From Bacillota bacterium (GTDB taxonomy: Bacteria > Bacillota > SHA-98 > Ch115 > JABLXJ01), in contig DUMQ01000130.1 in NCBI GenBank assembly GCA_012839815.1, positions 1 through 64,000 of the forward strand: a DNA stretch of 64,000 bases, read 5' to 3'. Below are positions 1 to 44,126 of this stretch, one piece after another. The notes under the pieces are model-generated. The model had not been told where the DNA came from. It was given only the letters and a program-made list of their open reading frames with translations, and did not search any database. A program made the translations under genes and the position numbers. Each line of letters opens with the position of its first letter. The stretch's first letter is position 1.

Positions 1-216
1 CGTGACGGGGCCTTTTGAAATTTGGCAAGGCCCTCGCGCCAAGTTTCAACGGAGGCGCGCCGCAAGCGCGCCGTCCCCGGAACGCAAGCACCGGCATCCC
101 CTGGCAAAACGGCGATAATCTTCGAACTTACACTTAGCCGCGTCCGCTGGGCGGAGAAATGCGCGACACCCTATGCGAGTGCCAAAAAGGACAGAGATTT
201 TTGCGCACCAACTTAG
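1..216. repeat. Dispersed modular inverted-repeat element, copy A (truncated by window start; central segment plus right arm)
   Basis: Shares long stretches with 43740-44126 (gcaccggca...aatcttcgaac.tacacttag...agagatttttgcgcac.aact). The central segment (1-87) is in opposite orientation relative to the right arm. Confidence 0.85.
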
Positions 217-2134: not shown

Positions 2135-3544
2135 ATGAGCGAGCGAGTGATGATAAGCCCTGTAACGAGGCTTAATGGCTTTTGGAGAGTCGATGTTCTA
2201 ATAGAAGATGGGATCGTGAAGGACGCATGGAGCAGCGGGATCTTCTTCAGGGGTTTTGAGCTCATCCTGGAGGGACGTGAACCAAGAGATGCCATATACC
2301 TCACCGAACGCATCTGCGGAATCTGCTCGTCGGCCCACGGCATGGCCTCATCGCGCGCCCTTGAGAACGCGTGTGGGGTGGAGGCGCCGCGAAACGGGGT
2401 GCTCATGCGCAACCTCATCTTCGCCGTTGACATGCTCCAGAACCATATCAGGCACTTTTACCTGCTGGCTGTCCCCGATTTCGTGGAGGGGCCCGATATG
2501 CCGCCTTTTCTGCCGAGGTATAACGTTGATTTCAGGCTTTCAAAGAGCGCAACCGAGCGCATCATGGCCAACTACCTGGAAAGCCTGAAGCTGACCCGGG
2601 AGTTCATGGAGATCCAGGCCAACCTGGGTGGCAAGTCGCCTCACACTCATGGAATCCTGGCGGGGGGTGCACCGGTCGCGCCTGACGCGGACAAGATCAG
2701 GTACAGCCTCTCGGTGGTGGATAGGGCCAGGAAGTTCATCACAGAGAAATATATCCCGGATGTATATACCCTGGGCGAGGCCTACCCGGATTATTACGAG
2801 ATCGGAAAGGGCCATGGGAATTTTCTAATCTATGATTTATTCCCCCAGACGCAGCCAGACGGGGGCCCGGTCCACAAGGGCGGGGTCATGATCGACGGCA
2901 GGCTGGAGAGTCTCGATATCGGCGCTATAACCGAACATGTGAGATTCTCGTGGTTTTCACCGGAGGACGGGCCTCGCAAGCCGGAGGCGGGGTCAACCCA
3001 CCCCGATACCAGGAAGGTCGATGCCTACTCCTGGGTGAAAGCCCCGCGCTACAGGGGAAAGGCCGTTGAGACGGGCCCCCTGGCGGTCCAGTGGATCGCC
3101 AGGGGTTATAGGCGGGGGATATCGGTTATGGACAGGCACGTGGCCAGGGCTTTAATGACAAAGGAGACCGCCGAGCTGATACGCGAGTGGCTGCTCTCGC
3201 TCGAGCCCGGTAAGCCGGTTTTCGAGCCGTATGAGATACCGGCTGAGGCCGAGGGGGTAGGCGCGGTCGAGGCATTCAGGGGCGGGCTCGGACACTGGGT
3301 GAAAATCGAGGGGCGGCGGATAGCCAGGTACCAGATCGTCACGCCTTCCGCCTGGAATTGCTCCCCGCGGGATGATTCGGGGCAGCGAGGGGCTGTTGAA
3401 GAGGCACTGGTCGGTACGCCTGTGAAAGACCCAAGGGCCCCTATCGAGGTTGGGCGGGTCATCAGGTCGTTCGATCCGTGCCTGGCGTGCGCTGCTCACG
3501 TGATTCGCTCCGATGGCTCACGCGAGGATATCAGGATCAGCTAA
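2135..3544 (+). CDS. [NiFe] hydrogenase large subunit
   Basis: N-terminal RICGICSSAH and C-terminal DPCLACAAHVIR motifs. Confidence 0.95.
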   Translation: MSERVMISPVTRLNGFWRVDVLIEDGIVKDAWSSGIFFRGFELILEGREPRDAIYLTERICGICSSAHGMASSRALENACGVEAPRNGVLMRNLIFAVDMLQNHIRHFYLLAVPDFVEGPDMPPFLPRYNVDFRLSKSATERIMANYLESLKLTREFMEIQANLGGKSPHTHGILAGGAPVAPDADKIRYSLSVVDRARKFITEKYIPDVYTLGEAYPDYYEIGKGHGNFLIYDLFPQTQPDGGPVHKGGVMIDGRLESLDIGAITEHVRFSWFSPEDGPRKPEAGSTHPDTRKVDAYSWVKAPRYRGKAVETGPLAVQWIARGYRRGISVMDRHVARALMTKETAELIREWLLSLEPGKPVFEPYEIPAEAEGVGAVEAFRGGLGHWVKIEGRRIARYQIVTPSAWNCSPRDDSGQRGAVEEALVGTPVKDPRAPIEVGRVIRSFDPCLACAAHVIRSDGSREDIRIS

Positions 3545-3615
3545 GTTAGTGCGCAAAAATCTCTGCATTTTGGGGCACTCGCATAGGGTGTCTCGCATCT
3601 CTCCGCCCGGCGGAC
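3541..3615. repeat. Dispersed modular inverted-repeat element, copy E (outer right-arm fragment, reversed)
   Basis: ctaagttagtgcgcaaaaatctctgc...gcactcgcatagggtgtctcgcatctctccgcccggcggac matches the reverse complement of the outer right arms of copies A and D. Confidence 0.85.
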
Positions 3616-3738
3616 GGTTCAGGGGTGCATATAGGTCAGGGGTGGGATAGGCGGGGATGGGTAGTCCAGGATTGAGGAGAGTAAGATAGGGAAGTATAGA
3701 GTAATGTAGAGTAGAGCTGGTCAGGGGGTGCAAACACG

Positions 3739-15810: not shown

Positions 15811-15991
15811 CTCTTATCCAGAGTGGCTGAGGGACTGGCCCAATGACGCCCGGCAACCGGCGGCGGGTATCCGCCTGCGCGGTGCCAATTCCTGCAGGGT
15901 TTGCACGTCGCGCGAGGTTTTGCGCTTGTTATGCTGTAGATCGGTTACAGGCGCACGGGTAAGCGTGAACGTGAGCCCTGAGAGATGAGAG
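15811..15991 (+). promoter_or_regulatory. SAM-I (S-box) riboswitch aptamer
   Basis: ctcttatccagagtggctgagggactggcccaatgacgcccggcaacc...ggtgccaattcctgcagg...gagagatgagag; P1 pairing ctcttatc/gatgagag. Confidence 0.93.
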
Positions 15992-24970: not shown

Positions 24971-24976
24971 CTTATG

Positions 24977-25077
24977 TGGCGCGCCGCAAGCGCGCGGTCC
25001 CCGGATGCAACACCGGCAACCTATGGGACGTGCTGGTAAACCGGCATGAATTTAAGGAATTAGCACTTAGTGCGCCA
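24977..25077. repeat. Dispersed modular inverted-repeat element, copy B (half of inner module, reversed)
   Basis: ggcgcgccgcaagcgcgcggtccccggatgcaacaccggcaacctatgggacgtgctggtaaaccggcat...cacttag matches the reverse complement of the left inner arm of copies C and D. Confidence 0.85.
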
Positions 25078-25666: not shown

Positions 25667-25732
25667 CTAAGTCAGTGCGCAAAAACACCCAGACCTTTCG
25701 CAGGTAACAGCTAACAGTGCGGCACATTGGCC
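25667..25732. repeat. Dispersed modular inverted-repeat element, copy F (outer left-arm fragment)
   Basis: ctaagtcagtgcgcaaaaacacccagacctttcgcaggtaacagctaacagtgcggcacattggcc matches 43741-43804. Confidence 0.85.
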
Positions 25733-25901
25733 GGGGTGCATACCCGCGTCACCTGCTCTGTTGAGCCGCACCGCGGCATGAGTGTCTACTCTAAGTTGGA
25801 AATCCTACGAAATCCTTTTTAGAAATCTATTGCAAGTGCGCGCCATCTGTGCTAGTATAATTTGTGAAAAAAGTTACGAAGTCTGGGGGCGTAAGAGAGG
25901 G

Positions 25902-38945: not shown

Positions 38946-40268
38946 ATGATGCCCCAGCAGGGAGGATCGGGTGGTGATGATCCAGTCTTGATAAGACTTT
39001 TGATCGCCGACGAAAGGGGCCGGATTTCCGTAGAGGAGGACCTGGCTTGCGCCGGCAGGACGGGGGACATTCTCGTCGAGGTCCAGCCAGATGATGTAAT
39101 GCCGGTGCCTTCCGGCGCGACCCTGATGTTCTTGCCGGGGCGGGAGGCGATCGGCATTGACGTGAGATCCGGGGATTTTGTCCCGGCGGGACGAGGCCTG
39201 AATGCCGTGAGCGCCATCCTCCCCCAGGGATATACCAGGACCCTGCTACCAGCCTATAGACCCCCCACCGGAGGTAAGCGTGATGGGATCCTCCCGCTTT
39301 TCGGCTATACGATGGTGGGGATGGGCGATGATGGCCTTGTTGTTGCTGCGGTGCGGACGGATGAGGATTTCAAGTGGAATCCTGAGAACTATAATACTCG
39401 TGACCTGCCGGCCCGGGTCGCCGCCGCGCTTGAAGGACGGCCGACAAACAGAATTTTGGTGCAGCTCTCGAAATGCGCGCTTGAGTACGGGTGTTTTACT
39501 GCGCAGAACATATTCTACCGCCGCTGGGAGGGCGGCATTCCCGTGGCGACGACGTGCAATGCCATGTGTCTTGGCTGCATCTCCAAACAGCCCTCTGAAT
39601 GCTGCCCCGCACCCCAGGAACGCATAAGGTTTACACCCTCGGTCTCCGAGATTGTGGAGGTCGCCCTGCCTCATCTCGAGGAGGCGGAGGACGCCATAAT
39701 TAGCTTTGGCCAGGGATGCGAGGGCGAGCCTCTAACCAGGAGCGAGCTGCTTGCCGGGGCCATTCGATCCCTGAGAAAAGCCACAGGGCGGGGGACAATA
39801 AATATAAATACAAACGCCGGCGATACGCGCGGGTTTAAGGCCCTGTGCGAAGCCGGACTCGATTCAGCGCGGGTGAGTCTTATCAGTGCTAGGCCGGAGG
39901 TATACAATGCCTACCACAGGCCACGCGGTTATTCACTCGAGGATGTGATCGCTTCGCTCAGGGTTGCGAAGGATTACGGGGTTTTCACATCGGTGAATCT
40001 TCTCGTGTTCCCGGGCCTCACGGATAGCAAGGAGGAATTCCAGGCCCTTTCTGAGCTTATAGAAGCCTCCAGGCTGGATATGATCCAGCTCAGGAACTTG
40101 AATATAGACCCGGAGTTTTTCATGGGCGTCCTGCGTAAGTCCACGGGTATCCTGCGTCGGTCCGGTGGGGGAAGCGAGGCTATTGGCATAGTAAATTTTA
40201 TTGAGGCCCTTAAATCTTCATTCCCCCGACTCAAAATCGGCAATTATTCGCGCCCGGTTGGGCGTTAA
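38946..40268 (+). CDS. Radical SAM protein
   Basis: CNAMCLGC (CxxxCxxC) within a TIM-barrel-like sequence; FGQGCEGEPL. Confidence 0.85.
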   Translation: MMPQQGGSGGDDPVLIRLLIADERGRISVEEDLACAGRTGDILVEVQPDDVMPVPSGATLMFLPGREAIGIDVRSGDFVPAGRGLNAVSAILPQGYTRTLLPAYRPPTGGKRDGILPLFGYTMVGMGDDGLVVAAVRTDEDFKWNPENYNTRDLPARVAAALEGRPTNRILVQLSKCALEYGCFTAQNIFYRRWEGGIPVATTCNAMCLGCISKQPSECCPAPQERIRFTPSVSEIVEVALPHLEEAEDAIISFGQGCEGEPLTRSELLAGAIRSLRKATGRGTININTNAGDTRGFKALCEAGLDSARVSLISARPEVYNAYHRPRGYSLEDVIASLRVAKDYGVFTSVNLLVFPGLTDSKEEFQALSELIEASRLDMIQLRNLNIDPEFFMGVLRKSTGILRRSGGGSEAIGIVNFIEALKSSFPRLKIGNYSRPVGR

Positions 40269-40269
40269 G

Positions 40270-40467
40270 CTAAGTGCTGGTTCCTTAATTCATGCCAGTT
40301 TACCGGCACGTCCCAGGACTTACGGTGTTGCGTTCCGGGGACGGCGCGCTTGCGGCGCGCCTCCGTTGAAATTTGGCGCGAGGACCCTGCCAAATTTCAA
40401 GAGGCCCCGTCACGCAATCACCGGCAACCTATGGAAAAGTGGCAATGGCTTTTGAGCTTAAACTTAG
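40270..40467. repeat. Dispersed modular inverted-repeat element, copy C (inner module alone)
   Basis: ctaagtg.tggttccttaatt...ttgcgttccggggacgg...ttgaaatttggc...gccaaatttcaa...cacgcaa.caccggcaacc...cttag matches 43849-44047. Confidence 0.87.
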
Positions 40468-41031: not shown

Positions 41032-42408
41032 TTGCGCAACCTTGTCGAGGACGCCCTCAAGGGGGCGGGCGCCGATTATGCGGAGATAAGAATAGAAGAG
41101 CGCGAGACTACGCGGATTGCGTTCCGAGGCCGGACGCTGGAGGAGATAGGGATGTCCGTGACTCTCGGTGGTAATGTGCGGGCGCTGGTGCGGGGCGGCT
41201 GGGGCTTTGTTTCCTTTGACGGCATTGGCGAGCTGAAGGAACGCGTGCGGCTTGCGGTAAGTCAGGCGAGGCTGGCGACGACCGGAAACGGCCGCGCCTC
41301 GCAGCTCTCACCAGTTGAACCCGTAATTGATAGTGTAAAGGCCCAGCTTGTAAAGGACCCGCGCCACATCCCGCTATCGACCAAGAAGCGCCTCTTGGAG
41401 GAGTATAACGAGATTATTCTCAATTCCGGGCCGAGGATCCAGACATCGACCATCCTCTATGTGGAGACGTTTACGAAGAAGTATTTTGCCAATACCGAGG
41501 GGACCTATATAGACCAGGAGGCGAGCGATATAGGGGCGAATATAACGGCCATCGCCAGGGATGGCGACAATGTGCAGCAGTGCTTCCTGCCTGCGGGCGG
41601 CACAACAGGGTTCCAGACCGTTGAGGGGCTCCATGAAAGGGTTAGGGACATCGCCCGGAGGGCCATTGAGATGCTGGATGCGGATCCCGTGAAGGCCGGC
41701 GAATACACGGTGGTTATCAACCCTGGCCTCGCCGGGGTGTTTGTTCACGAGGCATTTGGTCACCTCAGCGAGTCGGATTTCGTTTACGAAAACGAAAGGC
41801 TGCAGGAGATCATGACCATGGGCGCGCGATTCGGCCCGGATATCTTGAACATCGTTGACGGGGCGGCGGTCGAAGGCCACCGCGGGTCATACAGGTATGA
41901 TGATGAGGGGGTCCCGAGCAGGATGACCCACCTTATAAGAAACGGCATCCTCGTTGGCAGGCTTCACTCTCGTGAGACCGCGGCTAAAATGGGTGAGCGC
42001 CCAACGGGCAACGCGAGGGCCATAAACTACCGTCACAGGCCTATAGTGCGGATGACGAATACGTTTATAGAGAATGGAACGACGAGCTTTGAGGATATGA
42101 TCTCAGATATAAAGGAAGGGGTCTACGCCATAGAGGCATATGGGGGCGAGACCGCTATGGAAATGTTTACCTTCTCGGCGGGCGAGGCCTTCATGATAAG
42201 GAATGGCAAGATAGCCGAGCGGGTGAGGGATGTGGTCCTGACCGGCAACCTCTTCGATACACTCAAGAACATCGAATGCATAGGTAATGATTTTGAATGG
42301 CATGATGGAGGCGCCGGCGGGTGCGGCAAGGGCGCGCAATTCCCGTTGCCTGTGGGCGATGGGGGTCCACACGTGAGGATACGTAAGGTTGTCATAGGGG
42401 GAAGATGA
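41032..42408 (+). CDS. tldD: TldD metalloprotease
   Basis: HEAFGHLSESDFV (HExxxH) motif; followed by a paralogous subunit gene. Confidence 0.93.
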   Translation: MRNLVEDALKGAGADYAEIRIEERETTRIAFRGRTLEEIGMSVTLGGNVRALVRGGWGFVSFDGIGELKERVRLAVSQARLATTGNGRASQLSPVEPVIDSVKAQLVKDPRHIPLSTKKRLLEEYNEIILNSGPRIQTSTILYVETFTKKYFANTEGTYIDQEASDIGANITAIARDGDNVQQCFLPAGGTTGFQTVEGLHERVRDIARRAIEMLDADPVKAGEYTVVINPGLAGVFVHEAFGHLSESDFVYENERLQEIMTMGARFGPDILNIVDGAAVEGHRGSYRYDDEGVPSRMTHLIRNGILVGRLHSRETAAKMGERPTGNARAINYRHRPIVRMTNTFIENGTTSFEDMISDIKEGVYAIEAYGGETAMEMFTFSAGEAFMIRNGKIAERVRDVVLTGNLFDTLKNIECIGNDFEWHDGGAGGCGKGAQFPLPVGDGGPHVRIRKVVIGGR

Positions 42409-43742
42409 CTTTGGAAAGGCTGTTGAATCTTGCATCGAAAGAGGCTGACGCAGCTGAGGTATTCTTCATAAAGAGCGCGGAGACCCCCGTTTCCTTTGAA
42501 GCGAACAGGCTCAAATTCATCGAAACGAGGATGGTTGAGGGCGCCGCGCTCCGGATCATAAGAAACGGGCGCATTGGTTTCTCGACCTCCAGCAAGCTTG
42601 ATGAGCCGGATATCCTGGTCAGGAACGCCGTCGCCTCGAGCGAGTTCGGGGTCGAGGCGGCCTTTGAATTCCCCGCGACGTCAAAGGCAGCGCTTCCCAC
42701 CCCCAGGGTTTACGATGCCGGGATCGCCGACCTTGACCCTGGGTACATGATCAAGCTCGGCTCGGAGATGATCGCCCGGGTGCTGGATGCAGAGCCTGGG
42801 GCCAAGTGCGACGTCACGTTTACCAGGGATGTAGAGGAGATCTCTGTAGGGCATGCGGGGGGTGGACCTCCTGTATCGTACCGGCGGACCTTATTTGAAG
42901 GTGGCATGGAAGTGACTGTGGTCTCCGGCGAGGATATCTTGATGGTCTCGGATTACAATGCATCGAGCGCAATGAATATCGATTTCAGGCGCCTCACCGA
43001 CGGGATCATCCAGCGTTTGATATGGGCGAGGAGGATAGTCCCCGTCACCACCGGCCGGTACCCTGTCATCTTTACATCCAGGGCCATGGTTGTCCTCCTC
43101 CTGGCGTTGAAGGTGGCCCTGAATGGAAAGACGGTACTCCAGGGAGCCTCGCCACTTGCCGGCAAACTGGGCACCAGGGTGATGGATGAGCGTATCTCCC
43201 TTTACGACGACGGGACGGTGAACCACGCTCCGAGAAGTGCCCCCTTTGATGACGAGGGCGTGCCGTGCCGGCGGACGCCGCTCATAGAGGGCGGCGTGGT
43301 CCGCAACTTCTATTATGATCTCCAGACCGCCGGGCGTTCGGGGAAGGAGAGCACTGGCAATGGCTGGCGCGTCTCGCGCACGGGAGAGCGGTCCTTTGAG
43401 GGCCAGCCTACGACGGCGCAGACTAACATCGTGGTGCCGCCGGGGGACATGAGCCTCGAGAGGATGATAGAAAGCATGGATGAAGGCCTCATCGTTGAAC
43501 AGCTTATGGGGGCGGGCCAGGGGAATATCCTGAGCGGCGCCTTCTCGATGAATGTTCACCTCGGCTACAAGGTGGAGGGCGGCAGGATAGTGGGCCGGGT
43601 CAAGAACACCATGGTGGCGGGGAACGCCTTTGAGGCGTTTAACGATGTGGTGGCGCTTGGCGACAAGGCTGAGTGGGTCATGGGCCCTTATTCGGTGCCG
43701 GCTTTCTTGTTCAGGTCGCTGTCGGTGTCGACGAAGAGTTAA
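42405..43742 (+). CDS. pmbA: TldE/PmbA metalloprotease subunit
   Basis: TldD/PmbA family: MVEGAALRIIRNGRIGFSTSSKLDEPDILVRNAV...; 4-bp overlap with tldD. Confidence 0.92.
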   Translation: MTLERLLNLASKEADAAEVFFIKSAETPVSFEANRLKFIETRMVEGAALRIIRNGRIGFSTSSKLDEPDILVRNAVASSEFGVEAAFEFPATSKAALPTPRVYDAGIADLDPGYMIKLGSEMIARVLDAEPGAKCDVTFTRDVEEISVGHAGGGPPVSYRRTLFEGGMEVTVVSGEDILMVSDYNASSAMNIDFRRLTDGIIQRLIWARRIVPVTTGRYPVIFTSRAMVVLLLALKVALNGKTVLQGASPLAGKLGTRVMDERISLYDDGTVNHAPRSAPFDDEGVPCRRTPLIEGGVVRNFYYDLQTAGRSGKESTGNGWRVSRTGERSFEGQPTTAQTNIVVPPGDMSLERMIESMDEGLIVEQLMGAGQGNILSGAFSMNVHLGYKVEGGRIVGRVKNTMVAGNAFEAFNDVVALGDKAEWVMGPYSVPAFLFRSLSVSTKS

Positions 43743-44126
43743 GTTAGTGCGCAAGAATACCCGGACCTTTCGCAGGTAACAGCTACCAGTGCTGCACAGT
43801 GGCCGTGGCGTCTCGCATCTCTCCGCCCGGCGGACGCGGCCTGCTCGACTAAGTGTAGGTTCCTTAATTTGTGCCAGTTTACCAGCACGTCCCAGGGGTT
43901 GCCGGTGTTGCGTTCCGGGGACGGCGCGCTCGCGGCGCGCCTCCGTTGAAATTTGGCGTGAGGGCCTTGCCAAATTTCAAAAGGCCCCGTCACGCAAGCA
44001 CCGGCAACCCCTGGGAAAACGTCAGTAATCTTCGAACCTACACTTAGCCGCGTCGGCCGGGCGGAGAGATGCCAGACGCCCTATGCAAGTGCCCAAAAGG
44101 GCAGAGATTTTTGCGCACTAACTCAG
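43740..44126. repeat. Dispersed modular inverted-repeat element, copy D (complete, about 387 bp, nested)
   Basis: Outer ends agttagtgcgcaagaat/atttttgcgcactaact; ctaagtgtaggttc/gaacctacacttag exact; tcccaggggttgccggtg/caccggcaacccctggga exact; ttgaaatttggc/gccaaatttcaa exact. Confidence 0.93.

Follow-up and report, generated by a model that had tools for sequence, protein, structure and literature searches.

The locus at positions 43740-44125 of the window (the whole stretch of 64,000 nucleotides analysed here) raises the question of what kind of sequence is palindromic at several nested levels, and how it came to be so. A reading of the sequence alone had proposed a modular non-autonomous mobile element, or a structured RNA or cruciform family, that had assembled and fragmented in this genome. 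The analyses below indicate, with a probability of about 0.88, that the locus consists of two MITEs of the IS630 (Tc1/mariner) type, one lying within the other, for which an IS630 enzyme is the putative mover and a conserved central core has a presumed role.

Two elements, one nested in the other

The segment forms a single long nested hairpin, and DNA folding of the 387 nt gave -141.2 kcal/mol, as compared with a mean of -69.9 for shuffled sequences (z -16.6, none of 100 as good). All of the arms described in the sequence-only reading for its nested palindrome of about 387 bp were recovered at their positions, including the exact pairs of 14, 18 and 12 bp, and the 34-bp pair said to be nearly identical (43807-43840 and 44047-44080) is 94% complementary. 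The outer TIRs, AGTTAGTGCGCAAGAAT (43742-43758) and ATTTTTGCGCACTAACT (44107-44123), have the form AGTTAGTGCGCAA(A/G)AAT and the inner TIR reads AGTGTAGGTTC, with matches that are exact or near-exact. The composite is bounded by TA target duplications at 43740-43741 and 44124-44125 (the right one now CA), and the inner element by TA copies at 43850-43851 and 44045-44046. Neither the inner element (199 bp) nor the composite (386 bp) contains a transposase gene. In the list of window features given here, G001 designates a congener of the window's genome, which is itself designated G000.

43740-44125, no strand: composite (outer MITE carrying the inner MITE) with two TA copies, the right one now CA; supported by arms, fold and G001 locus L215 without the element
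43742-43849, plus: outer element, left part, with TIR AGTTAGTGCGCAAGAAT at 43742-43758; supported by outer-only copies elsewhere
44047-44123, plus: outer element, right part, with TIR ATTTTTGCGCACTAACT at 44107-44123
43850-44046, plus: inner MITE with flanking TA, C-TA-AGTGTAGGTTC ... GAACCTACACT-TA-G; supported by empty sites for other copies
43890-44016, plus: conserved core, three-way junction
43890-43907/43999-44016, plus: core stem P1
43908-43913/43992-43997, plus: core stem P2
43916-43920/43985-43989, plus: core stem P3
43922-43945, plus: core hairpin P4
43946-43957/43969-43980, plus: core hairpin P5
40271-40466, plus: inner MITE occurring alone, flanked by TA copies; G001 L215, the orthologous locus, lacks it
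1-220, no strand: composite truncated where the contig begins (inner element 1-137, right part of the outer element 138-220)
3540-3616, minus: outer-element fragment (right part)
24976-25070, minus: truncated inner MITE (left half)
25668-25736, plus: outer-element fragment (left part)

The solo inner MITE adjoins the stop codon of a radical SAM gene (38946-40268). Elsewhere in the window, a T-box leader (253-578, minus) and a SAM riboswitch (15811-15924, plus) score above the Rfam gathering threshold, both being ordinary for Bacillota.

The flanks examined came from sequence totalling about 0.78 Mb for G000 and 1.05 Mb for G001. Outer elements devoid of the inner module were found in G000 at L075:13596-13746, L072:2724-2833 and L090:9741-9970, and inner modules devoid of outer parts at L068, L078, L083, L086, L093, window position 40270 and others. 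The inner module was also present in G001, and no outer element was seen in the 1.05 Mb examined there. The locus is thus a nest of two separate TIR elements, each also occurring alone. Identical internal junctions of the composite occur at at least eight distinct left flanks in G000, indicating that it moved as a unit after nesting. These results bear out the modular mobile element first proposed: the inner module reported alone at 40270-40467 is real, as are the partial copies, whose limits were refined to those listed above, and the truncated fragments, together with empty sites in the congener, further support the claim of assembly and fragmentation. A sequence of about 75 bp in G001 (L102:10164-10238) has both arms and no core, and is possibly a natural deletion.

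Target sites and a putative IS630 partner

Outer and inner termini have the common form C-TA-AGT...ACT-TA-G. The C before the left TA was found in 27 of 31 clean-ended copies; the G after the right TA was demanded by the search pattern in this set and is therefore no evidence. When ends were counted separately, C preceded TA at 20 of 23 inner and 16 of 21 outer ends, versus 680 of 5318 (13%) of all xTAAG in the loci. Empty sites were available on both sides for two solo inner copies and on one side for two composites. At base resolution, comparison of the G001 copy L233:9217-9416 with G000 L075, gapless over 302 nt, revealed an empty site in which TA occurs once, reading GGCTAGAA. For the G000 copy L083:7492-7687, the empty site in G001 L207 has GCTAAG at the junction, which corresponds to CTAG with one substitution; the two sequences have the same length there, with an 8-nt gap further left. 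On the left flank of the window composite, G001 L215 lacks the element and has AGAGCTAGCG at the boundary where the window has AGAGT-TA followed by the element, a longer comparison giving TCGACGAAGAGCTAGCG versus TCGACGAAGAGT-TA and the element. Another composite (L070) was documented on its right side, by an exact alignment to L107 from TA onward. The solo copy at 40270 is absent at the orthologous L215 locus, where the right-hand flank diverges. No copy was common to both congeners among at most six distinct comparable loci (seven rows of comparison, two of which are one region seen from both sides). Duplication of TA in CTAG-like targets is a trait of the IS630 (Tc1/mariner) group, and these comparisons show that the present elements inserted in the same way.

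The left TA of the window composite falls in the stop codon of a TldD/PmbA protease gene (42405-43742). This insertion and that of L233:9217-9416 both lie in stop codons (TAG/TAA in CTAG-like targets), leaving the end of the reading frame unmoved.

DDE_3 (IS630) transposases were identified in G001 (L126) and in the genome G002 (L125, 290 aa, DDE_3 E 1.4e-32), with IS630 transposase relics in G003, G004 and G014. Searches of G000 for DDE_3 and for the G002 transposase found no match in its 163-contig assembly, which may lack repeats; an autonomous partner in the same genome is not strictly required of a MITE. The search for a transposase with matching ends, suggested in the sequence-only reading, found IS630 elements with similar ends in related genomes and none in the window's own. 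The IS630 ends, located by listing TAAG sites, are C-TA-AGTTAGTGTCCAATTAAATTTGCCACTTTGCCAGG at the start and TTTTGTGCATTAACT-TA-G at the end of L126, close to the outer TIR, and C-TA-AGTAAGAGTTCTTTTACATTTGCCACTTTACCAGG at the start of L125, close to the inner left arm. Both IS630 elements have C-TA-AGT...ACT-TA-G ends in common with the MITEs, a subterminal AATTTG..GCCA.TTT.CCAG motif in common with the inner left arm, and AGTTAGTG.. ends in common with the outer element. In contrast to the geneless MITEs, whose right ends differ, they encode a DDE_3 transposase and have no core. In shuffle tests covering many pairs, p values were 0.0005-0.0085 for outer ends against the G001 IS630 ends and 0.001-0.0015 for the inner left arm against IS630 ends, and the same tests detected no such similarity for the inner right arm or the type A arms of family f3. 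Since many pairs were tested, a single p near 0.01 is weak, and the argument for IS630 draws on the best p values and the common TA/CTAG boundaries. With no intact IS630 found in G000 and IS630 ends that match only partly, we infer from the relatives that an IS630-family enzyme moves these elements.

Such a transposase, acting in trans, would recognise the TIRs and excise the element, which would then insert at TA, mostly within CTAG, with duplication of the TA. At some point the inner MITE entered the outer one, close to the tip of its hairpin, and the composite then spread as one unit by its outer ends, as the identical junctions at distinct sites show. Each unit, as a near-perfect palindrome, may be able to extrude as a hairpin or cruciform.

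A conserved forked core and its possible origins

Throughout the class, elements whose arms have diverged share the 120-nt centre of the inner element. When 41 distinct copies were aligned, stems P1-P3 were supported along with two hairpins, P4 and P5, which meet them at a three-way junction, with pairing in 87.5% of cells versus 38-43% when the partners were slid. Compensatory changes between arms, on which the sequence-only reading had depended, were found: 23 core pairs had changed on both sides (shuffled mean 15.1; reached in 0 of 500 shuffles), as had 97 core cells versus 36.4 after shuffling. Run by itself, RNAalifold recovered no more than the inner 21 pairs, and its covariation term was weak. 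A candidate pseudoknot between the P5 loop and the following strand, proposed from the window copy, was rejected, as only 64.7% of cells pair across the class.

Covariance-model searches returned 106 matches in G000, many of them truncated at contig ends, so that further copies do exist; there were 32 in G001 and at least 150 in the distant relative G008. Nucleotide searches detected the core in 15 of the 17 genomes of the class. In a sample of 300 genomes of the phylum, the nine positive ones all belonged to the class, and the core was found neither in the 289 sampled genomes outside it nor in two of its members. Named records carrying the core are uncultured Bacillota MAGs. No match was found in viral contigs (exact pattern search), nor in plasmids or phages, and a Corallococcus match from the genome scan was discarded as a chance 27-mer whose surroundings lack the core. 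The family is not one already catalogued in Rfam 15, where no match reached the gathering score (best unrelated, E 1.1).

At least 29 of the 163 G000 contigs begin within three bases inside the core, as at window positions 1-84 (the start of C119); the assembly is therefore broken up by this repeat, and copy numbers are approximate. Genomes of f3 also have a second core subfamily (L112:3915-4113, L160:1920-2049, L155:6386-6513 and L049:1223-1345), in which the fold is kept and the stems are replaced, P4 being GCGCCCC-AAGC-GGGGCGC and P5 CAAAATCCGGCC/GGCCGGATTTTG.

The core diverges more slowly than its surroundings. Mismatch per site was 0.023 in the core versus 0.05-0.15 for most flanking arms in G000, and 0.026 versus 0.09-0.19 in G001; in f3 it was 0.14 versus 0.21-0.27 for arms and TIRs, P1 itself being as conserved as the core. 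Nearly all copies found by an arms-only search carried the core, as scored by a simple motif test, so this lower divergence is not only an artefact of searching with the core. Mismatches within the stems comprised 45 G-T and 52 A-C, versus 16 and 2 in tRNA stems of the same loci (Fisher p 0.0008, with cells non-independent through relatedness). This lack of a G-U excess over A-C indicates that the pairing evolves like that of a DNA structure and not of a one-strand RNA.

The most serious competing explanation is that the pairing is a mutational by-product, the arms of a long palindrome being kept alike by slippage during replication or by copying from arm to arm, and that the core itself has no function. 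The symmetric stem mismatches agree with this, and traces of copying are evident. In L068:10914-11122 and L096:12448-12657 the left arm has been copied in place of the right one. P1 has two block alleles in the genus: 40 distinct cores have the matched pair GTTGCCGG/CCGGCAAC, 15 have the matched pair ACTTACGG/CCGTAAGT, nine have the half-switched ACTTACGG/CCGGCAAC, and none has the opposite half-switch. Some of the arm matching is thus attributable to arm-to-arm copying. However, core sequence, loops and junction included, is conserved across families while arms and TIRs diverge, and there is a hint that unpaired core positions may be conserved beyond the arms even with copying allowed for. 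Because copying leaves loop and junction conservation unexplained, selection on the core is preferred and a functionless core seems unlikely, though it keeps appreciable weight. With modest confidence, this selection would most simply serve the element's own spread; core conservation could also reflect host selection or biased arm-to-arm copying.

It is far less probable that the core is a structured RNA, small or cis-regulatory, spread by the MITE and selected for pairing in the transcript. The three-way junction and the two-sided changes would suit such an RNA, many copies lie near the 3' ends of genes, and stably folded transcripts of MITEs have been described (PMC10969869, PMC3049150). Against it stand the missing Rfam match, the similar numbers of G-T and A-C mismatches that set the stems apart from tRNAs, and the finding of no copy common to congeners at comparable loci. 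Only two of 43 copies lie inside called genes, the rest being intergenic, and orientation relative to tandem genes showed no clear preference (12 same, 8 opposite), both counts being based on crude gene calls. Of the structured RNA or cruciform first envisaged, the conserved structure has thus been retained and the RNA has not, there being no Rfam match, no clear strand preference and no G-U excess.

With selection on a DNA structure as the preferred reading, the forked core of the inner MITE would be maintained as such and would most likely aid the element, by drawing its two ends close to each other or by exposing them when single-stranded in replication, its arms being kept matching in part by arm-to-arm copying or gene conversion. 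A more specific and quite tentative proposal is that the single-stranded element folds into a three-way junction by which the transposase, or else a host factor, is recruited or positioned, selection then acting more on DNA shape than on transposase-binding ends; the element would in that case be a MITE that depends on its shape.

Known relatives and significance

The Repeat Unit of Pneumococcus (RUP), known from streptococci, is an AT-rich MITE of 107 bp related to IS630-Spn1 (PMC3049150). Like the present elements, it is a short, non-coding, high-copy MITE of IS630 type whose TIRs pair in the predicted fold, and it was proposed to be mobilised in trans (PMC3049150). As judged from its description, RUP differs from the GC-rich, 199-bp element found here, which lies inside a second MITE and whose forked core has been conserved in two bacterial families. 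Correia, ERIC and Nezha-type MITEs are also short TIR elements, several of them having a TA duplication and long imperfect palindromes and some being kept across species. Their sequences and hosts differ from those of the present element, and we know of no comparable conserved three-way-junction core among them. REP/BIME sequences with RAYT are intergenic, high-copy palindromes associated with a Y1 transposase (PMC3733652). Despite these likenesses, the idea that such an enzyme moves the present element in single-stranded form, as in REP/RAYT systems, was rejected as scarcely credible: REP/BIME are much shorter, with neither TIRs nor TA duplication, whereas TIRs are present here and empty sites reveal TA duplication, and Y1 does not co-occur with the elements, Y1_Tnp being detected in five of the 17 genomes and in none of G004, G006 and G008, the three with the most candidates.

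No description of this family was found in the literature searched, of which coverage was incomplete. We rate it as a new IS630-type MITE family in an uncultured Bacillota class, one that includes a nested composite and whose conserved forked DNA core is unusual; MITEs of this kind are known, and the present variant is new.

The usual view of bacterial MITEs is that only their ends hold them together and that the middle drifts. In the elements described here, the ends change faster than the middle, a forked hairpin that is conserved in two bacterial families and shows DNA-like compensatory changes; such class-wide preservation of base pairing is unusual for non-coding mobile elements of this type. 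The family breaks assemblies of these genomes and has landed in stop codons. If the core aids mobility, DNA shape would contribute to the spread of these elements.
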